From contig CAIRZD010000130.1 of the NCBI GenBank assembly GCA_903882965.1, positions 23,305-87,304 on the forward strand: DNA of 64,000 nt, given 5' to 3'. Position numbers and translations under genes: made by a program. The notes beneath the pieces are model-generated. The model saw nothing but the letters and a program-made list of their open reading frames with translations, was not told the DNA's origin and did not search any database. This stretch comes from an uncultured Bacteroidota bacterium (GTDB taxonomy: Bacteria; Bacteroidota; Bacteroidia; Chitinophagales; Chitinophagaceae). Shown one piece after another: positions 19,549-62,336 of this stretch (its first letter is position 1; each line of letters begins with the position of its first letter).

Positions 19549-19890
19549 TACAGATGTTATAAGTGAAAATAACTATAATATATAAAGGTAGTATTTATTA
19601 ATTGTTTGTATGCATGTTATCCACTAATTCTGGTTTTCAACTTGCTTTGTTGTCAGGATGAGAGGTTTTGCCTGAGTATATAAAGATCGTATTTATTATA
19701 CCGGATATCAAGCATCGGCTGTTTATGAGTAAAATAAATATTTATCTTGAGCCCTAACATTTTGAGACGAGGGGACGCCTACTATATATGGCAAGATCCC
19801 CGGAAGGGGAAATACCTTATATTTTGATAGTTATATTTAAGAAATTTTATTAATTTACATGCCTTGCGGCTGTAATAAAATATACCCCTA

Positions 19891-22800
19891 ATGAAACATT
19901 TTAACTATTCCCGTTGTAATTCAGCGACTATGAAAAATTCCGGCAGTACACGCAGGGATTTAATTGTAAGCGCTTTATTTTTTTGTACGCTGCTGCTATG
20001 TGGTAATGCTATAGCACAGCCTGTTATTGGCTCATTAAGTACAAATATTGGTGTGCCGGGTAGTAGTATTAACATTAGTGGTTCGAATTTTAATACGAAC
20101 CCCGTAAATAATATTGTTTACTTCGGAGCAACGAAAGCTACTGTAAATACTGCAAGCGCTACATCGCTAGGTGTAACGGTGCCTGTGGGAGCGACTTATG
20201 CGCCGGTTACTGTAAATAATACGGCAACGCACCTGATGGGGTATTCGGATTATTCGTTTTTGCCGAGATATAATAATAGCGGGTATTTGCCGGGGGCAAT
20301 AAATTTCGATTCGAATGTAAGTTTTACAGACGCAGGTTCTAATACTCCTGTACAAGTAGTGATCGCAGATATAGATGGGGATGGTACACCCGACCTTGTA
20401 GTAATGAATAATATTGGTTTTTCGGTATACCGGAATACGAGCACAAGTGGCTCCATTACAAGTGGTTCCTTTGCTACTGCGGTTGACTTTACCGTGACCG
20501 GGAACGTAGCACAATATGGAGAACCGCAATTAGCTGTGGGCGATATAGACGGGGATGGGAAACAGGATGTATGCATTTGCAATGGCAGTGATACTATTTA
20601 TGTAATGCGCAATACTTCCTCGATCGGAACTGTTAATTTTACATCTCCGGTATTCTTTTTGGGAAATTCATATTATTGGGGCACTGATTATTTTGCCAGT
20701 ATAGCAATCATAGATATTGACGGGGATGGGAAAGCAGATATAGTTTGCGGAGATGGTATGGGCATAGCTGTATTCCGGAATATGGGTACTGCTGGAACAA
20801 TAACTTCAAGTTCGCTGGCAACGTCGATAGTTTTTGAGGGAGCCGGTTACTCGGGAATAGCTATCGGGGATTTGGATGGGGATGGTAAGCCGGATGTGGT
20901 AGGCACTATAGGCTCGACAGCGGGAGATAATCTTACAGTATACAAAAATACCAGTTCTCCAGGGGTTATTAACTTTGCAACTTCGGTGGGCTTTGCTACA
21001 GGTAATTATCCGGCAAATGTGCTTATCAGTGATATTGACGGAGATGGCAAGCCTGACCTTGCGTTCCTTAACCAGGGAGATGGCACTCTTGGTCTTATGC
21101 GTAACACTGCTACGACAGGTACTATTGATGCAAGCTCTTTTGCGGCACAAGTCGTTTTTGCAGCAGGCTATAGCCCGTGGGGTTTAGCTTCAGGAGATTT
21201 TGATGGTGATGGTAAACCAGACATCGCTGTGTCTAGCCCTTATACTTTGCTCGCCACCTTTGGCCAGACCGTACAGATATTTCATAACATAGCCAGTGCA
21301 GGAACAATAGACACTAATTCGCTTAATGGCAATGAAAATGTTGTAGCAGGGAACCCGATAGTGAGTATAGCAGTGGGTGATATAGACGGGGACAGTAAGG
21401 CTGACATTGTTACGGTGAACCAGGCTGATAATAGTATTTCGGTATTAAGGAATGCTCCTTTATATCCTTCACCTACTATTACGTCAGTAAGTCCGGACAT
21501 TAATTCACCGGGAACCTCTGTAACCATAACGGGCACTAACTTTAATACTACTGCGGCGAATGATATTGTTTATTTCGGGGCTACGAGGGCTACTGTGAAC
21601 ACGGCAAGCGCTACATCGCTGACTGTGACAGTGCCGATTGGGGCTACTTATGCACCGGTGACTGTAAATAATACGGCAACGAACCTGATGGGGTATTCGG
21701 AACATGCATTTTTGCCGGATTATAATAACAGTGCATATGTACCGGGTACGGTAAATTTTGATCCTGAAGTGGGTTTTACAGACGCAGCCAATTCTAATAT
21801 AAGCCAGGTAGTAATTGCAGATATAGACGGAGATGGGAAGCCTGATCTTATAGTAGCAGGCGCGACTATTTCTATTTACCGGAATATCAGTACAAGCGGC
21901 TCTATAACTGCCGGTTCTTTTGCAGCTCCAATAGATATCAGTGTAACCGGTAATAACTTGTTTGTAGCTACAGGGGATATAGATGGTGATGGGAAACCGG
22001 ACATGGTTGTCAGTGGTCTGTATAGTGATTCTATTTACGTATTCCGCAATACCTCTACCAGCGGTTCTGTAAATTTTGCACCGTATGTGGCATTTACAGA
22101 GAATACATCTTATACGCCTCAGGGCCCTATTAATATAGCCATTGGTGATATAGATGGGGATGGTAAAGCGGATATAATTACCGGTACCTATGGGGCCCAA
22201 TATTTTGCAGTATTCAGGAATACTGCTACAGCCGGGACAATAGATGCCAGCTCGCTGGCCACTGCCGTAGATTTTCCAGCAGCCATTACAGGTAGTGGAG
22301 GTAATAGTTTTGTAGCTATAGGGGACCTGGATGGAGACGGGAAGCCAGATGTGGTAATCACGAACGACTATATAGATGTGTGGGTAATGCATAATACCAG
22401 CACAGCTGGCTCACCCAGCTTTGCAGCAGGTGTGGACTTTACAGCGGGCAATGGTACAACATTTATAGCCATCAGCGATATAGATGGGGATGGAAAAGCA
22501 GACCTTGCAATTTCTAATACAAATGATGGTACCGTTTCTATTTTGCGTAATACAGCCACTGCGGGTACTATTAATGCCAGTTCTTTCGCTGCACAGGTAG
22601 TTTTTGCTGTCGGCTATGATCCATACAGTATTGTTTGGGGTGATTTTGACGGTGATGGAAAACCAGACCTAGCTGTGAGCAGCGGCTTATACACTGCGAC
22701 CCCCCTATTTACCTATGTATTCCGGAATACATCTACACCAGGTGTCATAAACAGCAGTTCACTCACCGGCAAGATGTATGCCGGAGCAGCAAGCACTATT

Positions 22801-25800
22801 TCCAGTGTAGTTGCGGGCGATATAGATGGAGATGGCAAGACAGATATAATTACAGCAAACTTCAGTAGTAATACTATTTCGGTATTAAGGAATGATCCTT
22901 TATTACCAGTGATCACATCTGTGAACCCGACGATAGCTGCTGCGGGCGCTACAGTGACCATAAGCGGTGCGAATTTTAATACTACAAGTGCAAATGATAT
23001 TGTTTATTTCGGGGCTACTCGGGCATCGGTAACTTCAGCGAGCGCTACATCACTGAGTGTAACAGTGCCTGTGGGCGCAACGTATGCACCAGTATCAGTT
23101 ACTAATACCTTGAACGGGCTGGCCGCATTTTCAACAAATGCGTTTTTGCCCAATTATAATAACAGTGCGTACCTGCCTGGATTGGTAAATTTTGATCCAC
23201 ATGTGGACTTCACAGATCCGGGGGGCGTTTACCCGGGGAAGACAGTAATTGCAGATATAGACGGAGATGGGAAACCTGATATGATAACAGTAGGGGGCTT
23301 CGGTATTTCGGTGTACCTAAATACAAGCACAAGCGGCACTATCACGAGCGGTTCTTTCGGAACTGCTGCTGATTTTACGGTACCCGGTGGTTGGGGCTCT
23401 ACACTAGGAGCAGGAGATATAGATGGAGATGGCAAGCCGGATTTAGTGGTTGCAGGTAATGGTAACATTGTGTTATTCCGCAATACTTCTACGACCGGGT
23501 CTGTGAGCCTTGCATCTCCTGTAACCATCGCCGCAGATTTTATGGATAATAATCCTTATGCTATCGCTATCGCGGACCTTAATGGAGACGGGAAACCTGA
23601 TGTGATTGTTTCGGATGCATATTACGGTAATATTGCGGTATACCTGAATACGGCAACAGTAGGCACGATAGACGTCAACTCGCTGACAACAGGGGCTGGG
23701 GTGGAGTCTGCAGGTTTAGATTTCCCAATTCCGGGAGGGGGAGGGTATTTGCATGGTCTCGCTGTCGGCGACCTAGATGGAGACGGTATACCTGATGTTG
23801 CAGTGGCAGATATCAATAATAATGTGGTTTGGGTATTCCGTAATACTTTTTTGAGCGGAGCTGTGGGTTTTGCGGCGCCTGTGAGCTTTGCTACAGGCAA
23901 TGGGGTTAATGATGTACTTATCGCTGATATAGATGGTGACGGGAAACCAGACCTGGCTGCCGTGAACTTATCTGATAATAGTATTTCTCTCTTACGCAAT
24001 ACATCAACGGTTGGGGCGCCTTCATTTGCAAGCCAGGTAGTTTTTGCTACCGGGAATCAACCATACACAATAGCTTCAGGTGATTTTGACGGAGATGGAA
24101 AACCAGACCTTGCTGTGGAGAACTATAGTGATAATACCATTTCTGTATTCCGCAATACAGCTACGGCAGGAAATATTAATACAGGGTCGTTAGCGACAAG
24201 CAGTGTGTTTGCAACAGGTAATGGCCCCCAGTATATAGCAGCGGGTGATATGGACGGGGATGGCAAGACGGATATAGTAGTTGCCAATACCAATGACGGA
24301 AGTATTTCAGTATTGAGGAATTATCCTTTATATCCGCACCCGACTATAACGTCAGTAAGTCCATTGATTGACTCGCCGGGAACTTCTGTAACCATAACCG
24401 GTACTAATTTTAATACAACTGCGACGAATGATATTGTTTATTTCGGGGCTACGAGGGCTACTGTGAACACGGCAAGCGCTACATCGCTGACTGTGACAGT
24501 GCCGATTGGGGCTACTTATGCACCGGTGATGGTGGATAATACACTGCATGGGCTGATGGCATTATCGCCGAAAGCGTTTTTGCCGAATTATGATAACAAT
24601 GCTTATGCGCAAGGAGTAATAAATTTTGATCCGAAGGTGACTTTTACAGATCCGGGAGGTGTAGGCGGCGGGCAAATGCTTATCGCAGATATAGATGGAG
24701 ATGGCAAGCCTGATATGATAACAAGCACTGGGGCATCTATTTCCGTTTACCGGAATATAAGTGCAAGTGGCTCTATTACGAGCGGGTCTTTTGCAACGGC
24801 GGTAGATTTTGTTGTTCCGAGTGCAATTGGGGGAGCGCTGACATTTGGCTATGGCGCAATCGCAGCAGGTGATATTGATGGGGATGGTAAACCTGATTTA
24901 GTCTTTGCCGGAAATGATGCTTCAAATAATTTTTACATTTTTGCATTCCGGAATACATCCACCAGCGGATCCATCAGCTTTGCATCACCAGGAGTGATCC
25001 CTTATATCAGCTCTGATGAAGAGCCTACAAGTATTGCTATCGCAGACATAGATGGGGATGGGAAAGCGGATGTTGTTACCGCAAATTTTTATGGAAATGT
25101 TTCTGTATTTTTAAATTCTGCCACGGTTGGAATTATTAATTCCAGTTCGTTTGCAGCCCCTATAGATTTTGGAAATTGGGGGACAGCAAGCGGGCAAAAA
25201 CTTGCGGTAGGCGATCTTGACGGAGATGGGAAACCAGACCTAGCATATACAGATTATTTTAATAATGTGTCTGTGCAGCTTAATACATCCACTATAGGGG
25301 TGGCCGGCTTTGCAGCCCCGGTAAGTTTTGCCGCGGGAAATGCACCTTACGGTATAGTGATCGCGGATATAGATGGGGATGGCAAACCAGACCTTGCAGT
25401 AACGAATGTGACTGATAATACGATTTCGCTTTTTCGGAATACGGCTACTGTAGGTAGTATAGATGGCAGTTCGTTTGCGAGCCAGGTAGTTTTTACTACC
25501 GGTATGGGACCATTCGATGTAGCCTCAGGCGATTTTGACGGCGATGGGAAACCAGACCTGGCAGTGGTGAACATTAACGGGTATGATAATTCAGTTTCTA
25601 TATTCCGCAATACAGCAACTACAGGTTCTATTAATACCGGATCTCTGGCGGCAGGTGTGACTTTTGCCACCGGTAGCGCGCCAGCGTATATGGCTGTAGG
25701 TGATATAGATGGAGATCGTAAGGCGGATGTGGTAATTGCAAATATCGGGGATGGTAATATATCGGTATTAAGGAATGATCCTTTTTATGCGAGTCCTACT

Positions 25801-28800
25801 ATAACATCAGTGAGTCCGTTGATTGACTCACCGGGAACTTCTGTAACGATAACGGGTACTAATTTTAATACTGTAGCGGCGAGTGATATTGTTTATTTCG
25901 GAGCTACGAGGGCAACGGTAAATGCGGCAAGCGCAACATCGCTGAGTGTAACTGTGCCTGTAGGAGCGACTTATGCACCGGTGACTGTGGATAATATGCT
26001 GCATGGGCTGATGGCATTTTCACCGAAAGCATTTTTACCTGATTATAATAACAGTGCATATCTGCCCGGGATTGTAAATTTTGACCCACAAGTGGTTTTT
26101 ACTGATCTCTCCAGTTATAATGCAAGCCAGGTGGTTATCGCAGATATAGACGGTGATGGTAAACCAGACATGGTAGTTGCAGGCAGTACATCTATTTCTA
26201 TTTATCTAAATACAAGTACAAGTGGATCCATTACCAGTGGATCTTTTGCATCACCGGTGGATTTTGCCATACCATCAGCCGGTGGTAGTAATTATTTTTC
26301 TATAATTGGGATAGGCGATATTGATGGTGATGGTAAGCCAGACCTGGTTGTGGCAGGGGCGAGGGGGTATAGTTTTGATGGATCAGGAGTGCAGAGCGAT
26401 AGTATTTCAGTATTTCGCAACACTTCGACCGGCGGGTCTGTAAGTTTCGGATCGCCTGTGTCATTTGCACAAGGGCCAAATGATTTCCCGACAGCTATAA
26501 CTGTTATGGATATAGATGGAGATGGGAAAGCAGATGTAATAACAACAAATAATGACGGCAACGTTGTAGTATTCCGGAATACAGCTGCCATTGGTAGCAT
26601 CACTATATACTCGCTGAATTTGCCGGTGGATCTTTCTACTGCGGGCGGTGCCCTGGCAGGTTTGGCTGTGGGCGACCTTGATGGGGATGGTAAGCCAGAT
26701 ATAGCAGCTGACGATAACAATAATAATGTTGTCTGGGTATTACGCAATACCAGTATTTTGGGCAGTATAGGATTTGCAACACCAGTGAGTTTTCCTACCG
26801 GCATAGAGCCGTATGGTATTGTGATCGGAGATATAGACGGGGATGGTAAGCCAGACTTGGCGATCGCTAACTCGAATGACAATACGATTTCACTTTTGCG
26901 TAATACATCTGTAGTTGGTACTATTGATGGAAGTTCTTTTGCGGGGCAGGTGGTTTTTGTTGCAGGCATTAATCCGTGGAGTATAGCTTCAGGTGATTTT
27001 GACGGTGATGGAAAACCGGATCTGGCTGTTATCAATCTTGTTTCATCAACTGTTTCCGTTTTCCGTAATACAGCTACGGCCGGCAACATTAATTCAAGTT
27101 CACTTGCAGCAAAGGTGGATTATGCAACAGGTAGCGAGGGACAGGGTGTAGCCGCAGGTGATATAGATGGGGACGGTAAAGCCGATATAATAACAGCCAA
27201 TACGAGCGCTGGCACTGTATCGGTATTGCGGAATGATCCATTAATGGCAACCAGCATTACCATTACAGGTAATACTCCATTATGCGTTAGCTCAACAATA
27301 ACACTGAATGGAACACCGGCTGGTGGAACATGGAGCAGTGGTAATGCGGCTGTGGCCACTGTGGGTGGCTCTACAGGAGTTGTGACAAGCGTAAGCGCAG
27401 GGACAAGTCTAATATCTTATACAACTTCAGGTGGAGCGACAACGACAATAGTGACCGTTAATGCTATACCAACGGCCGCACCCGCCAGTAATGGACCTAT
27501 TTGTAGCGGAGGGAATGTGATGATTGTCGCAAATGCTACAGGCGCTACTAATTTCTCCTGGAGCGGGCCGAATTTATCATCAACCACAATTGCGAATCCT
27601 ATTGCTACACCTACTGCTACGGCCACTTACTCTTTGACGGTGAGCAATGCAGGTTGCAGTTTATCAACGACAACGTTAGTTATTGTAAACCCTGCCCCAA
27701 CAGCAGCCCCAACAAATAACTCACCGATATGCAGCGGAGGGACAGTGATGCTTGCCGCACATCCTTCGGGAGGCGTTACAAATTATTCGTGGAGTGGGCC
27801 TAATTTGTCTTCAGGAAGCGTACAAAATCCTACAGCAACTCCTACCGTCACTGTTGCAACATATTCTTTGACAGTAAGCAGCAGCCTTGCCTCAGGCTGC
27901 AGCCCATCGACGGTATATACAACTACAGTTGTTGTTAATCCATTACCTAGTGCGGGAAGTATAAGTGGGCCGTCATCTGTGTCAACAAGGCACAGCATTA
28001 CTTTGACTGATGCTGTTGCAGGAGGTATATGGACATCATCGAATGCAGGAGTTGCTGCTGTGAATAGTGCAGGTATTGTAACAGGAGTTGCTGCAGGTAG
28101 CGCCGTTATTACTTATGCAGTAACTAATAGTTGTGGTACTGCTTATGCGACAACTACAATTACTGTGACTACAGGTGTAATCAGTTGTACTACGGCAAGT
28201 AACATATCGACCTTTGCCGGTGACCATGTGAATGGTTATAATGGTGATGGCGGTATGGCGACTGCTGCTGAAACAGGGAGCTCTTATGGCGTGGCTGCAG
28301 ACGGTGTGGGCAATGTTTATATAACAGACTATTTTAACAATGTAGTACGCAAAGTAGACCCATCAGGTGTGATCTCTACTATCGCGGGTACAGGTGCTGC
28401 AGGGTACAACGGCGATGGTATTGCGGCAACTTCGGCGCAACTGAACGGGCCGATGGGTATAACGCTGGATGGTGCAGGAAATATTTACATCGCTGATAAA
28501 TACAATGAGCGTATCCGTATGATCAATACAGCAGGTGTGATCACAACTATAGCGGGAAATGGTTTTCATGGTGGCTGGGCCGGGCATGGATATGGTAGTG
28601 GCGGACCAGCCGATTCGGCGAGCCTGGATTATCCTGTATCTGTTGCAGTGGATTGCAGCGGCAACATGTATATAGCAGACCAGGGCAGTGAAACGGTGCG
28701 TAGAATAAATGCATCCGGTATAATCAATTTCTTTGCAGGAACAGGTGCAGGTGGGTATAATGGTGATGGGATAGCTGCTGCTACAGCACAACTCAATAAC

Positions 28801-30057
28801 CCAAGTGGTGTGGCGGCAGATTGTGCCGGTAATGTATACATAGCAGACGCATGGAATAACCGAGTGCGTAAAGTTGATGCATCAGGGATCATTACTACTA
28901 TTGCCGGTAATGGCGTTGCAGGATATGGTGGCGACGGCAGCCCGGGCGGCTCTGCGGAATTATGGATACCAACCGGTGTGACGCTTGATGCATGTGGTGA
29001 CCTTTATATCTGCGACTGGCAAAATAATGTGGTAAGATTCTTGAGTACAGATGGTTATATTTCCACTTTTGCAGGTAATAATATTAGCGGCTATGATGGT
29101 GATGGTGGTGCTGCAAATGCTGCCGAGCTATATCTGCCAAGCAGCCTTGCAATAGACGGACTTGGAAATGTATATATAGCTGATTATGGGAATTATGTGA
29201 TACGAGCTATAGGTAATGCGCTGCCTGCCGAAAGGAAATTTATAAATGGTACTACGCAGGATATGACGGTTTGTGAAAATGAAACAGCCATCCCGATAAA
29301 TAGCCTGATGGCGATACCTGATGCCGCGAGCGGTAATACAGAAACCTGGGTAGTAAGTATAAACCCGGCACATGGTACGCTTAGCGGATTTAATGCGACC
29401 GCTACATCAACGATAGGTATAACTACCCCAATGGGATTGATCTATACTCCTGAAGCCGGGTATGCGGGTATGGATGCATTTACCATTATGGTGAAGGATG
29501 GGACAACTGCGGCATCTACGACTGTGAATGTGAAAGTGGATTCTATGCCAAACCCGGGTATCATAATCGGAAGTTCAAATATTATTATTGGCAAGAACAT
29601 CGCCCTTGTTAATGCCAGCGGCGACAAAAACGGGGTATGGAGCAGCAGTGATAACTTGATAGCTACGGTAGATGCATCGGGTAATGTAACCGGAGTGGGT
29701 AGTGGGATTGCAACTATCTCATATACAGTGGCCAACAATTGCGGATCAAAGAGCGCTACAACAGGGATAGAGATAAACGATGTATCGGCGCACCAAGGGA
29801 ATGTATTATTAGTGCCAAATCCGAATAACGGAACGTTTACTATCAGGGGCCCCATAGGGGCAACCGTAAATGAAGTGGTGACGCTTGAAGTAACGGATAT
29901 GCTTGGCCAGACTATTTATAAAGCCGAGGTTGTGGCAAAGAACGGCAGCATTAATGAGACTATATCGATGAGCAATACCCTGGCTAATGGCATGTATATG
30001 GTGAATATGCACAGCGAAACAGTTAGCAAGGTGTTCCACTTTGTGATTGAGAGATAG
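19891..30057 (+). CDS. Giant modular secreted protein: 5x(IPT/TIG + 7 FG-GAP), Ig-like, NHL repeats, T9SS sorting domain
   Basis: 3388-aa uninterrupted ORF; 35 DxDGDGxxD-type motifs, NHL units (GNVYIADxxNNRVRK), C-terminal LLVPNPNNGTFTI...DMLGQTIYK...LANGMYMVNM. Confidence 0.93.
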   Translation: MKHFNYSRCNSATMKNSGSTRRDLIVSALFFCTLLLCGNAIAQPVIGSLSTNIGVPGSSINISGSNFNTNPVNNIVYFGATKATVNTASATSLGVTVPVGATYAPVTVNNTATHLMGYSDYSFLPRYNNSGYLPGAINFDSNVSFTDAGSNTPVQVVIADIDGDGTPDLVVMNNIGFSVYRNTSTSGSITSGSFATAVDFTVTGNVAQYGEPQLAVGDIDGDGKQDVCICNGSDTIYVMRNTSSIGTVNFTSPVFFLGNSYYWGTDYFASIAIIDIDGDGKADIVCGDGMGIAVFRNMGTAGTITSSSLATSIVFEGAGYSGIAIGDLDGDGKPDVVGTIGSTAGDNLTVYKNTSSPGVINFATSVGFATGNYPANVLISDIDGDGKPDLAFLNQGDGTLGLMRNTATTGTIDASSFAAQVVFAAGYSPWGLASGDFDGDGKPDIAVSSPYTLLATFGQTVQIFHNIASAGTIDTNSLNGNENVVAGNPIVSIAVGDIDGDSKADIVTVNQADNSISVLRNAPLYPSPTITSVSPDINSPGTSVTITGTNFNTTAANDIVYFGATRATVNTASATSLTVTVPIGATYAPVTVNNTATNLMGYSEHAFLPDYNNSAYVPGTVNFDPEVGFTDAANSNISQVVIADIDGDGKPDLIVAGATISIYRNISTSGSITAGSFAAPIDISVTGNNLFVATGDIDGDGKPDMVVSGLYSDSIYVFRNTSTSGSVNFAPYVAFTENTSYTPQGPINIAIGDIDGDGKADIITGTYGAQYFAVFRNTATAGTIDASSLATAVDFPAAITGSGGNSFVAIGDLDGDGKPDVVITNDYIDVWVMHNTSTAGSPSFAAGVDFTAGNGTTFIAISDIDGDGKADLAISNTNDGTVSILRNTATAGTINASSFAAQVVFAVGYDPYSIVWGDFDGDGKPDLAVSSGLYTATPLFTYVFRNTSTPGVINSSSLTGKMYAGAASTISSVVAGDIDGDGKTDIITANFSSNTISVLRNDPLLPVITSVNPTIAAAGATVTISGANFNTTSANDIVYFGATRASVTSASATSLSVTVPVGATYAPVSVTNTLNGLAAFSTNAFLPNYNNSAYLPGLVNFDPHVDFTDPGGVYPGKTVIADIDGDGKPDMITVGGFGISVYLNTSTSGTITSGSFGTAADFTVPGGWGSTLGAGDIDGDGKPDLVVAGNGNIVLFRNTSTTGSVSLASPVTIAADFMDNNPYAIAIADLNGDGKPDVIVSDAYYGNIAVYLNTATVGTIDVNSLTTGAGVESAGLDFPIPGGGGYLHGLAVGDLDGDGIPDVAVADINNNVVWVFRNTFLSGAVGFAAPVSFATGNGVNDVLIADIDGDGKPDLAAVNLSDNSISLLRNTSTVGAPSFASQVVFATGNQPYTIASGDFDGDGKPDLAVENYSDNTISVFRNTATAGNINTGSLATSSVFATGNGPQYIAAGDMDGDGKTDIVVANTNDGSISVLRNYPLYPHPTITSVSPLIDSPGTSVTITGTNFNTTATNDIVYFGATRATVNTASATSLTVTVPIGATYAPVMVDNTLHGLMALSPKAFLPNYDNNAYAQGVINFDPKVTFTDPGGVGGGQMLIADIDGDGKPDMITSTGASISVYRNISASGSITSGSFATAVDFVVPSAIGGALTFGYGAIAAGDIDGDGKPDLVFAGNDASNNFYIFAFRNTSTSGSISFASPGVIPYISSDEEPTSIAIADIDGDGKADVVTANFYGNVSVFLNSATVGIINSSSFAAPIDFGNWGTASGQKLAVGDLDGDGKPDLAYTDYFNNVSVQLNTSTIGVAGFAAPVSFAAGNAPYGIVIADIDGDGKPDLAVTNVTDNTISLFRNTATVGSIDGSSFASQVVFTTGMGPFDVASGDFDGDGKPDLAVVNINGYDNSVSIFRNTATTGSINTGSLAAGVTFATGSAPAYMAVGDIDGDRKADVVIANIGDGNISVLRNDPFYASPTITSVSPLIDSPGTSVTITGTNFNTVAASDIVYFGATRATVNAASATSLSVTVPVGATYAPVTVDNMLHGLMAFSPKAFLPDYNNSAYLPGIVNFDPQVVFTDLSSYNASQVVIADIDGDGKPDMVVAGSTSISIYLNTSTSGSITSGSFASPVDFAIPSAGGSNYFSIIGIGDIDGDGKPDLVVAGARGYSFDGSGVQSDSISVFRNTSTGGSVSFGSPVSFAQGPNDFPTAITVMDIDGDGKADVITTNNDGNVVVFRNTAAIGSITIYSLNLPVDLSTAGGALAGLAVGDLDGDGKPDIAADDNNNNVVWVLRNTSILGSIGFATPVSFPTGIEPYGIVIGDIDGDGKPDLAIANSNDNTISLLRNTSVVGTIDGSSFAGQVVFVAGINPWSIASGDFDGDGKPDLAVINLVSSTVSVFRNTATAGNINSSSLAAKVDYATGSEGQGVAAGDIDGDGKADIITANTSAGTVSVLRNDPLMATSITITGNTPLCVSSTITLNGTPAGGTWSSGNAAVATVGGSTGVVTSVSAGTSLISYTTSGGATTTIVTVNAIPTAAPASNGPICSGGNVMIVANATGATNFSWSGPNLSSTTIANPIATPTATATYSLTVSNAGCSLSTTTLVIVNPAPTAAPTNNSPICSGGTVMLAAHPSGGVTNYSWSGPNLSSGSVQNPTATPTVTVATYSLTVSSSLASGCSPSTVYTTTVVVNPLPSAGSISGPSSVSTRHSITLTDAVAGGIWTSSNAGVAAVNSAGIVTGVAAGSAVITYAVTNSCGTAYATTTITVTTGVISCTTASNISTFAGDHVNGYNGDGGMATAAETGSSYGVAADGVGNVYITDYFNNVVRKVDPSGVISTIAGTGAAGYNGDGIAATSAQLNGPMGITLDGAGNIYIADKYNERIRMINTAGVITTIAGNGFHGGWAGHGYGSGGPADSASLDYPVSVAVDCSGNMYIADQGSETVRRINASGIINFFAGTGAGGYNGDGIAAATAQLNNPSGVAADCAGNVYIADAWNNRVRKVDASGIITTIAGNGVAGYGGDGSPGGSAELWIPTGVTLDACGDLYICDWQNNVVRFLSTDGYISTFAGNNISGYDGDGGAANAAELYLPSSLAIDGLGNVYIADYGNYVIRAIGNALPAERKFINGTTQDMTVCENETAIPINSLMAIPDAASGNTETWVVSINPAHGTLSGFNATATSTIGITTPMGLIYTPEAGYAGMDAFTIMVKDGTTAASTTVNVKVDSMPNPGIIIGSSNIIIGKNIALVNASGDKNGVWSSSDNLIATVDASGNVTGVGSGIATISYTVANNCGSKSATTGIEINDVSAHQGNVLLVPNPNNGTFTIRGPIGATVNEVVTLEVTDMLGQTIYKAEVVAKNGSINETISMSNTLANGMYMVNMHSETVSKVFHFVIER
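20020..21471 (+). repeat. Module 1 of five (484 aa)
   Basis: Begins PVIGSLSTNIGVPGSSINISGSNF; seven FG-GAP motifs. Confidence 0.9.
21472..22905 (+). repeat. Module 2 of five (478 aa)
   Basis: Begins PTITSVSPDINSPGTSVTITGTNF; seven FG-GAP motifs. Confidence 0.9.
22906..24339 (+). repeat. Module 3 of five (478 aa)
   Basis: Begins PVITSVNPTIAAAGATVTISGANF; seven FG-GAP motifs. Confidence 0.9.
24340..25794 (+). repeat. Module 4 of five (485 aa)
   Basis: Begins PTITSVSPLIDSPGTSVTITGTNF; seven FG-GAP motifs. Confidence 0.9.
25795..27243 (+). repeat. Module 5 of five (~483 aa)
   Basis: Begins PTITSVSPLIDSPGTSVTITGTNF; seven FG-GAP motifs. Confidence 0.9.
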
Positions 30058-58947: not shown

Positions 58948-59730
58948 ATGCATGCAATATGGAGTGGGGCGATAGGTTTTGGGCTGGTAAACATTCCTGT
59001 GAAGTTATATAGCGCAACACAGGAAAGCTCGCTAGATCTGGATATGCTGGATAAGAATGGTCATGCAAACATTCATTATGCCCGTATTAATGCAAAAACA
59101 GGAAAAGAAGTTCCCTGGGCAAATATTGTAAAAGGCTATAAATATAATGATGGGTATGTAGTACTAACTGATGCAGATTTTGAAAAAGTTAGTCCACAGA
59201 AAAGCAAGATGATTGATATTAATGATTTTGTAAAAGCAGAAGAAATTAATACTACTTTTTATGACACACCATATTATCTTTCTCCTACAAAAGGTGGTGA
59301 GAGAGCCTATGTACTATTACGGGAAGCACTAAAGCAAAGTGGTAAAATTGCTATAGGCCAGTTTGTGCTGCGCAATAAAGAAAGCCTATGTATACTTAAG
59401 CCCCAGGATGATGTGATACTATTGCAGAAGATCAGGTTTGCAGAAGAAATACGTAGTTACGAAGACTTGGGAATACCCAAAAATATAACTGTAAAACCCG
59501 CCGAGCTAAAAATGGCTCATTCGCTCATTAACCAATTGACGCCTAAGAAATTTTCGATATCGAAGTATAAGGATACATACGACGAAGATCTTATGAAGAT
59601 CATTAAAGCTAAGGCAAAAGGGAAAAAGATAACAGCACCTAAATTCAAAATTATACACAATAAGAGTAAGGACCTGATGGAGCAGTTAAAAGCAAGTCTT
59701 GATACTGGAACCAGGAAAAAAGCATCATAA
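58948..59730 (+). CDS. ku: NHEJ end-binding protein Ku
   Basis: MHAIWSGAIGFGLVNIPVKLYSATQES; ARINAKTGKEVPWANIVKGYKY; RAYVLLREALKQSGKIAIGQFVLRNKE. Confidence 0.97.
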   Translation: MHAIWSGAIGFGLVNIPVKLYSATQESSLDLDMLDKNGHANIHYARINAKTGKEVPWANIVKGYKYNDGYVVLTDADFEKVSPQKSKMIDINDFVKAEEINTTFYDTPYYLSPTKGGERAYVLLREALKQSGKIAIGQFVLRNKESLCILKPQDDVILLQKIRFAEEIRSYEDLGIPKNITVKPAELKMAHSLINQLTPKKFSISKYKDTYDEDLMKIIKAKAKGKKITAPKFKIIHNKSKDLMEQLKASLDTGTRKKAS

Positions 59731-60320
59731 TGAGCCTTGTAAAGTATAACAGCAAAAGAAGCTTCAATGATACGCCGGAGCCTTCCGGGAAGCAGGGCAG
59801 CAAACCCGGCAAGCTGATATTTGTGGTACAACGGCATCATGCCAGTCATTTACATTATGACTTCAGGCTTGAGTTAGAAGGCGCTTTGAAAAGTTGGGCC
59901 GTGCCTAAAGGGCCATCACTAAATCCGAAGGATAAACGATTGGCTATGATGGTAGAAGACCACCCCATAAGCTATGCTACATTTGAAGGGGATATACCTG
60001 CAGGCAATTACGGAGCAGGGCATGTTGATATATGGGATCATGGTACTTACGAACCTGTAGATGATAATGGTGCGGTGATAACAGCCCGTAAATTTGCTCA
60101 AAACCTGGATGCAGGAAGTATAAAATTCAGGATGCATGGCAAACATTTGAAAGGAGAGTTTGCACTGGTGCACATGAAAAAGGATGCGAAGACATGGTTG
60201 CTCATAAAGCATAAAGACAAATACGCTACCGAAGAAGATTATAGTAGTGAAGACTATGCCAAGAAGAGCTCTCTTGCGTATACTGCCAAACGTAATGAGG
60301 TAAGCGTAAAAAAAAAGTAA
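59730..60320 (+). CDS. ligD: LigD 3'-phosphoesterase (PE) domain ORF
   Basis: KLIFVVQRHHASHLHYDFRLELEGALKSWAVPKGPSLNPKDKRLAMMVEDHPISYATFEG; TAATG overlap with ku. Confidence 0.93.
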   Translation: MSLVKYNSKRSFNDTPEPSGKQGSKPGKLIFVVQRHHASHLHYDFRLELEGALKSWAVPKGPSLNPKDKRLAMMVEDHPISYATFEGDIPAGNYGAGHVDIWDHGTYEPVDDNGAVITARKFAQNLDAGSIKFRMHGKHLKGEFALVHMKKDAKTWLLIKHKDKYATEEDYSSEDYAKKSSLAYTAKRNEVSVKKK

Positions 60321-60351
60321 AACCGGTACTGCTTAAGAAACCTGCGGAACC
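60297..60351 (+). promoter_or_regulatory. Candidate -1 frameshift element joining PE to LIG
   Basis: GAGGT (60297-60301), A AAA AAG (60311-60317), TAA (60318), GGTACTGC/GCGGAACC hairpin (60325-60351). Confidence 0.5.
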
Positions 60352-60424
60352 TGTTGAGCCAAAATCGAATTCTAAAATACTACGTAACAGCAATAACCCT
60401 AAATTTAAAGATTATATAAAGCCT

Positions 60425-61342
60425 ATGCTGGCCAGGCTGCACGATGCTCCTTTTAACGACCCTGATTGGATATATGAGATCAAGTGGGATGGATACCGGG
60501 CGATTGCAGAAATAGGGAAAAATGCAACGAGGCTTTATTCGCGGAATGGATTATCATTTGAAGCCGACTACCCTTTAATATATGAGGAGCTAAGTAAAAT
60601 AAAAAAAGAAGCAATAATTGATGGAGAGATCGTAGCGCTTGACGCCAGAGGAAAGCCTGCATTTCAATTGATACAGCAGTATGAACAAAATGGAGATGTA
60701 CCTATTTGCTACTATGTGTTTGACTGTCTTTCAGTTAATGGCAAATCTATAGAAGATAAGCCACTGACAGAAAGGAAAAAAATATTAAGATCTATATTAC
60801 CCAAAAGCGATGTGATAAAGTATAGTGATCATGTGGAGGAGCGTGGTAAAGATTTTTTCAAGGCAGTGAAAAAGAAAGGGCTGGAAGGGATGATCGCAAA
60901 ACGCGCTGAAGGTTCATACAAAGAAGGTTATCGCTCTGCCGACTGGCTGAAAGTAAAGAATATAGTGATTGAAGAAGCGGTGATAGCAGGCTATACTGCA
61001 CCTTCAGGGAGCCGGAAATATTTTGGCGCACTTGTACTGGGATTGTATAAAAAGGGCAAGCTCATCTATATAGGGCATACCGGAACGGGATTTAATCACA
61101 ACACACTCAAGGAAGTTTATCAAAAATTACAACCGTTAAAAACTACAAATACCCCATTTGATACTGAAGTGCAAGTCAATGCACCGGTAACATGGGTAAA
61201 GCCAAAACTGGTATGTAATCTGAAGTATTCTGAGATCACCCAGGATGGACACAGAAGGCATCCTGTATTTATGGGCCTACGCATAGACAAAGAAGCGCAG
61301 GAAGTACATGAAGAAGTGCGGAATAGCAAAAAAAGGCACTAA
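60425..61342 (+). CDS. ligD: LigD ATP-dependent DNA ligase domain ORF (frame open upstream to 60299)
   Basis: DWIYEIKWDGYRAIAEIG (motif I KWDG); DGEIVALD; EGMIAKRAEGSYKEGYRSADWLKVK. Confidence 0.93.
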   Translation: MLARLHDAPFNDPDWIYEIKWDGYRAIAEIGKNATRLYSRNGLSFEADYPLIYEELSKIKKEAIIDGEIVALDARGKPAFQLIQQYEQNGDVPICYYVFDCLSVNGKSIEDKPLTERKKILRSILPKSDVIKYSDHVEERGKDFFKAVKKKGLEGMIAKRAEGSYKEGYRSADWLKVKNIVIEEAVIAGYTAPSGSRKYFGALVLGLYKKGKLIYIGHTGTGFNHNTLKEVYQKLQPLKTTNTPFDTEVQVNAPVTWVKPKLVCNLKYSEITQDGHRRHPVFMGLRIDKEAQEVHEEVRNSKKRH

Positions 61343-61374
61343 TAAAAAAAGCCTTAAAAAGTAAAGCCAGAAGC

Positions 61375-62286
61375 ATGGAAACTACAAAAAGTATAAACGG
61401 CATTAAAATGGCATTCTCTCATCTTGATAAGATATTCTGGCCTGATGAGGGTTATACTAAAGGGGATGTGATAGACTACTATAATAAAGTATATCCTCAC
61501 ATCATTAAGTATATGAAAGAGCGGCCGGAGTCATTATTGCGAATGCCTAATGGGCTTGCAGACAAAGGATTTTTTCAAAAGGACGCAGGATTAAACGCAC
61601 CGGAATGGGTGAAGCATGTGCCACTACATTCGGAAAGTGCGGAGAAGGATATCAATTACATAATATGCAATGATAAACCTACGCTGCTATATCTTGCCAA
61701 CCTTGGATGTATAGAAATGAACCCATGGAATTCGAGACTTGATACGCTTGATAAGCCTGACTATTTTGTGATGGATATAGACCCGTCTGAGCAGAATACT
61801 TTTGAGCAGGTAATTGAGACCGCAAATGTTATAAAAGAACTTCTTGACAAAGCCGGTGCTGCATCATTTCCTAAAACATCAGGCGCTACAGGTATTCATA
61901 TCTATGTGCCGCTCGGAGCTAAATATACTTATGAGCAAGCCAAAAACTTTGCAAATACAATCGCCATTATGACACAGGAGCAGTTACCTGATTTCACCAG
62001 CCTGGAACGTACATTAAGTAAGCGGGGTAAAAAGCACATTTATATAGACTATCTGCAAAACCGGAAGGGGCAGACATTGGCTTGTGCATATAGTTTGAGG
62101 CCAAAAGCGGGAGCTACGGTAAGTACCCCGCTTGATTGGAAGGAGGTAAAGAAGGGTCTTCATCCCTCTGATTTTACGATGAACAATATTATAAAGCGGA
62201 TAGAAAAGAAAGGTGATCTTTTCAGTGGTGTGTTGCTGAAGGGTATAGATATGATGAAGTGTATAAAGCAACTCGAGAGTAAATAA
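61375..62286 (+). CDS. ligD: LigD polymerase/primase (POL) domain ORF (frame open upstream to 61327)
   Basis: FSHLDKIFWPDEGYTKGDVIDYYNKVYPHIIKYMKERPESLLRMPNG; DYFVMDIDPSEQ; SGATGIHIYVPL. Confidence 0.93.
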   Translation: METTKSINGIKMAFSHLDKIFWPDEGYTKGDVIDYYNKVYPHIIKYMKERPESLLRMPNGLADKGFFQKDAGLNAPEWVKHVPLHSESAEKDINYIICNDKPTLLYLANLGCIEMNPWNSRLDTLDKPDYFVMDIDPSEQNTFEQVIETANVIKELLDKAGAASFPKTSGATGIHIYVPLGAKYTYEQAKNFANTIAIMTQEQLPDFTSLERTLSKRGKKHIYIDYLQNRKGQTLACAYSLRPKAGATVSTPLDWKEVKKGLHPSDFTMNNIIKRIEKKGDLFSGVLLKGIDMMKCIKQLESK

Positions 62287-62319
62287 AAAAACGGCTGGTA
62301 TTTACCAGCCGTTTTTTTA
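62284..62319. terminator. Bidirectional terminator between ligD and dnaK
   Basis: ACGGCTGGTA-TT-TACCAGCCGT with A-run and T-run. Confidence 0.88.
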
Positions 62320-62336
62320 TTTATGTTTTAAAATGA

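Follow-up and report, generated by a model that had tools for sequence, protein, structure and literature searches.

Two breaks in the ligD reading frame of an uncultured Bacteroidota bacterium: a widespread A-run between PE and LIG and a probable lineage-specific separation of POL

The conventional three-domain LigD has been assigned to all Bacteroidetes with NHEJ in a survey of these systems (PMC7719229). The locus analyzed here is closer to the nonconventional NHEJ described there, in which Ku is accompanied by ligase (LIG), primase-polymerase (POL) and 3'-phosphoesterase (PE) domains that are not all on one polypeptide, and POL is a gene of its own adjoining ku and LIG. Unlike in that survey, both fused and split forms occur here among close relatives within Bacteroidota, and the junction carries a conserved ATG. 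The ligD reading frame is broken twice, between PE and LIG (the first break) and between LIG and POL (the second break), and for both breaks there are described systems that invite comparison. Slippage at a run of nine A/T in dnaX of Thermus thermophilus (PMC5009743) is paralleled at the first break, where nine to ten A's lie at a domain boundary and one gene would yield a short and a long product; the likeness ends with the gene, which is ligD, with the occurrence of the run in both in-frame and -1 genes, and with the A7 of the second break, which does not fit. The -1 shifts of E. coli dnaX and IS elements occur at A_AAA_AAG, a heptamer that is also found directly before the stop at the first break; however, the run of 9–10 A's at this site exceeds what the heptamer needs, no significant downstream stem is detected, and the motif is missing from the second break. 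Genes with internal in-frame starts that yield a C-terminal product resemble the fused relatives of the locus, which carry a conserved in-frame ATG, a candidate start, at the POL boundary; in the window, in contrast, the frame is broken and POL would simply be a separate cistron.

Organization of the ku-ligD locus

The window, that is, the whole stretch of DNA analyzed (64,000 nucleotides), carries the following features, all on the forward strand:

58948..59730, +: ku (TIGR02772, E 2.5e-88)
59730..60320, +: PE (3'-phosphoesterase) ORF of ligD (TIGR02777, E 8.2e-64; PF13298)
60299..61342, +: LIG (ATP-dependent ligase) open frame (TIGR02779, E 1.4e-89)
60308..60316, +: A9 run at the PE-LIG junction, first break, PE frame GTA AAA AAA AAG TAA; putative slippage site
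61327..61342, +: stretch open in both the LIG and the POL frame, the sole place possible for a -1 transition
61328..61334, +: A7 run of the second break, neither conserved nor a canonical slippery heptamer
61344..61350, +: second A7 run, 3' of the LIG stop
61355..61374, +: sequence context 5' of the POL start; A at -3, -6 and -12, T at -13 (rule from PMC6847099)
61375..62286, +: POL (primase-polymerase) ORF, proposed own cistron from ATG 61375 (TIGR02778, E 2.7e-76; PF21686)
62280..62323, +: terminator-like hairpin 3' of POL, candidate operon end (consensus scan)

The PE, LIG and POL domains thus lie beside ku, in the order ku-PE-LIG-POL, as in bacterial NHEJ loci with LigD, and at the DNA level they occupy three frames, not the single frame of a conventional LigD. 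The first ATG of the LIG frame is at 60425 and its stop, TAA, at 61340-61342. The profile matches (TIGR02777, TIGR02779, TIGR02778 and PF21686) bear out the PE-LIG-POL order in one ligD locus proposed in an earlier note on this DNA, and the arithmetic by which that note had joined the three domains also holds (2557 + 2 = 2559 nt, or 853 codons with the stop). The stop of ku and the start of PE overlap in TAATG (59728-59732), suggestive of translational coupling. At the other end, a dnaK-like gene on the opposite strand lies beyond the terminator-like hairpin, which comes from a consensus scan where the count of such hairpins in the region was not above the shuffle expectation. The closest plasmid matches were from Chryseobacterium for LIG and from Parabacteroides for DnaK, which supports an origin in Bacteroidota. 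Elsewhere in the window, positions 19879-30057 form a single open frame that runs for about 3390 codons without a break, to which the earlier note had also pointed. Arrangements with ku directly beside POL, without LIG, occur in loci L019/L144 (genome G044) and L021/L143 (genome G037), so that ku-POL pairs exist in the family.

The LIG/POL junction and the POL start codon

The LIG frame ends in AGC AAA AAA AGG CAC TAA (61325-61342), and the POL frame, which is -1 relative to LIG, is closed by a TAG at 61324; the resulting overlap of 16 nt (61327-61342) contains the A7 run (61328-61334). When re-read, the coordinates that the earlier note had given for the run, the LIG end, the TAG and the -1 frame were all correct, and its remark that the heptamer of the second break is less canonical is borne out as well: A_AAA_AGG falls outside X_XXZ_ZZN, the definition of the -1 slippery motif (PMC4066793). 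No such heptamer is present in the 0 frame, in which AGC AAA AAA AGG offers only the A_AAA tetramer; weak tetramers of this kind remain near background in E. coli in the absence of a stimulator (PMC4066793). A small stem that had been proposed to follow the run, AAGGC/GCCTT, does appear in the predicted fold, but the stability of the region is not above that of shuffled sequences (25 of 200 shuffles fold as well; z = -1.09), and no significant stimulatory structure was detected on the downstream side, which this analysis covered. Efficient bacterial transcriptional slippage has been described at runs of nine A/T (PMC5009743); the A7 run is shorter than the roughly nine A/T or more of such homopolymers. 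The second A7 run (61344-61350) and the possible start at ATG 61375 are both absent from the earlier note.

Loci with ligD were collected within the genus, within the family and more widely in Bacteroidota, and both junctions were read, with 94 loci included in the linker counts. Nearly all loci have LIG and POL fused in one frame, and the nearest relatives of the window do so without exception. The split minority comprises the window, L062, L064, L065, L072, L088, L094, L100, L110, L112 and L116; relative to the LIG stop, the POL start lies between -3 and +33 nt in ten of the split loci and at +379 in one. L065 has a gap of 23 nt between its open frames instead of an overlap, so no simple shift could join LIG and POL there. 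An A-run of at least six inside the frame overlap was found at the LIG/POL junction of the window only, and the proposed frameshift site of the second break is shared by 0 of the 94 loci.

The linker itself is rich in A (45.8%, vs 40.7% for the PE-LIG linker), and the longest A-run in it is A7 in 26 of the 94 loci and A8 in a further 8, 34 in total, mostly in in-frame genes; on these counts, an A7 at the second break is ordinary and not above chance. Runs of nine or more A's are found in 0 of 94 LIG-POL linkers, against a mean of 11.0 loci and a minimum of 4 in 1000 trials of triplet shuffling; the linker seems, judging from this comparison, to avoid slippage-prone runs. Given the absence of the site from all relatives and of long runs from their linkers, the lack of the motif and the insignificant stem, the view of the earlier note that the second break is of the same kind as the first, i.e., programmed or regulated, is not supported. 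Its broader suggestion that the two poly-A breaks are regulated survives in part, for the first break, where A9 is kept in dozens of genera, but not for the unconserved second one.

The ATG at 61375 is located 33 nt 3' of the LIG stop. The clade of the window consists of 30 loci (support 100/99), 24 fused and 6 split, the window included. Of the 24 fused genes, 22 carry an in-frame ATG at a distance of 11-13 codons from the POL domain, on its upstream side, and the first ATG of POL is at the homologous place in all six split genes, pointing to a putative POL start codon that recurs among relatives; outside this clade, fused genes have no ATG at that position. The earlier note had named separate POL genes with their own starts in relatives as evidence that would refute a frameshift, and this evidence is in part at hand: POL is a separate gene beginning at the homologous ATG in five relatives of the clade, and the ATG is kept in frame in 22 of the 24 fused ones. 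Across the 22 fused genes, the 12 columns upstream of the Met have entropies of 2.2–3.3 bits and conservation begins at the Met; the zero entropy of the Met column itself follows from the anchoring of the alignment on it, and the recurring distance to the domain is the informative part. Conservation of a Met codon is by itself compatible with either a start codon or a conserved residue. The window has A at -3, -6 and -12 relative to 61375, positions where A favours initiation in Flavobacterium johnsoniae, a member of Bacteroidota without Shine-Dalgarno sequences (PMC6847099). The A-richness at -12 to -10 in the fused genes comes partly from a common Lys codon, so the context is consistent with a start and does not amount to proof. 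Taken with the recurrence among split genes, we infer that ATG 61375 is used for initiation in the window and that the same ATG may be an internal start in the fused relatives.

Origin of the LIG/POL break

Phylogenetic analysis groups the window with L069, L071, L067, L077, L070, L138 and L139, all fused (support 94/84), and not with the remaining split loci of the genus, and there are at least seven changes between the fused and split states on the tree. Being nested among fused loci and apart from other splits, the break of the window is, as far as the tree can tell, recent and independent. Because synonymous sites are near saturation, dN/dS ratios were left out and dN was compared; for POL, it is 0.101 between the window and L069, vs 0.091 between the fused pair L069 and L067, a value at which POL appears as constrained as in its fused relatives.

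We consider it probable, with some room for doubt, that LIG and POL are two adjacent cistrons, POL being translated from its own ATG at 61375, and that A7 is not a frameshift device. The second break would then most likely be a species-level separation of POL, rendered harmless by a pre-existing start codon. Under this scenario, LIG and POL would have shared one frame in the ancestor of the immediate clade of the window, with an unconserved linker between them and an in-frame ATG where POL begins; a small indel upstream of that ATG, within the linker, would have broken the join in the window lineage, and would have been tolerated because the ATG could act as the start of POL. Translated from 61375, POL would now close a ku-PE-LIG-POL operon. 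Observed directly are the frames, the conservation of the ATG, the position of the window among fused relatives and the lack of any conserved slippery run.

Two points run counter to separate cistrons: the seven nearest relatives are all fused, such that a single missing A would mimic a split, and the -1 reading across the linker gives a plausible Lys-rich linker. An assembly error or homopolymer undercall, with LIG and POL in frame in the true genome (e.g., through an A8) as in the nearest relatives, is the rival to be taken most seriously, even if we regard it as unlikely. The nesting of the window among fused loci at 94/84 support, the full-length ORF restored by one added base and the fragmentation of the assembly into 508 contigs are all in its favour, but, the first break excepted, no other run of A7/T7 or longer within the long ORFs of the window lies at a frame break, nor do any of 54 sampled A9/T9 or longer strand-runs elsewhere in the genome. 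These surveys of runs make an undercall at the second break less likely, not impossible; moreover, splits at the same place are found in other genomes, some of them beyond a single-base error (L065 and L062).

That A7 gives rise to a LIG-POL fusion beside free LIG, whether by a programmed -1 shift or by slippage during transcription, seems very improbable. The run does lie within the 16-nt overlap, -1 is the right direction, and the upstream break does resemble slippage; nevertheless, conservation in none of the 94 loci, the avoidance of long runs in this linker, the misfit of A_AAA_AGG to the slippery motif, with only a tetramer expected to act near background, and the insignificant stem all speak against it. 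Least credible of all is that POL is a decaying pseudogene fragment: compared with the fused relatives its frame is interrupted, but it is full length, scores above the family cutoffs, has a dN like that of the fused relatives and possesses its own ATG. The separation of POL into a cistron of its own remains our preferred reading.

The A-run between PE and LIG

At least nine consecutive A's (modal 9–10) are present in the PE-LIG linker of 73 of the 94 loci, compared to 15.6 loci on average and at most 26 in shuffles; inside the domains, about 206 kb in all, runs of this length occur once in PE, once in LIG and never in POL. The PE-LIG run is found in at least three Bacteroidota families (f1, f24 and f25), and the -1 relation between PE and LIG in dozens of genera. 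As the run is present both in -1 genes (e.g., GTA AAA AAA AAG TAA) and in in-frame genes (e.g., L080, L086, L161 and L162), the conserved thing is the run and not the frame. It is missing in 21 of the 94 loci, and the named plasmid ligD genes of Chryseobacterium sp. SNU WT5 and Dyadobacter chenhuakuii are without it. The site combines the traits of transcriptional slippage sites, namely, about nine or more A/T, conservation, and location at a domain boundary or frame transition, and is likely to represent a conserved slippage site. The slippage is probably transcriptional rather than ribosomal because the run comprises 9–10 A's, while ribosomal shifting needs 6–7. In -1 genes, a slip adding one A would join PE to LIG, and to POL where the latter is fused; in genes that are already in frame, the product of a slip would be PE with a short tail.

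Homopolymer undercall at this site is ruled out by the conservation of the run. The phase of the run was considered as a means to tell transcriptional from ribosomal slippage and was set aside, given that the phase varies and nine A's in any phase hold A_AAA_AAA or A_AAA_AAG. In the in-frame genes, alternative-frame stops after the run are no closer than in the control (median 4.5 vs 5 codons) and lend slippage no added support. No report of slippage in ligD was found in the open-licence full-text literature, and ligD goes unnamed in the main text of a survey of conserved frame transitions (PMC3711429). Two loci depart from the common pattern. In L077 (G004), the run is A8 instead of A9, which makes the frame relation +1 rather than -1 at the DNA level; the run may truly differ in length there or may have been undercalled. 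In L064 (G008), PE, LIG and POL are all separate, with an in-frame TGA in place of the A-run and POL split as well.

Of the two breaks, the first, with its A9, is the more interesting one, apparently a shared device, the other being a species-level fission. Tentatively, and with slightly less than even confidence, we propose that LigD of Bacteroidota is routinely made as several products, through RNA polymerase slippage at the PE-LIG A9/A10 run (PE vs PE-LIG-POL) and, in one clade, through initiation at a conserved internal ATG where POL begins (giving free POL as well as LIG-POL), and that in the window the second link has been fully broken as free POL suffices. Annotation pipelines may label such ligD genes as frameshifted or as pseudogenes. 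If the internal ATG is used, POL would be made free of the ligase even from a fused gene, which would explain the repeated, harmless LIG/POL splits; together with the conserved PE-LIG A-run, such use would suggest that Bacteroidota set the ratio of their end-joining activities at the stage of gene decoding.
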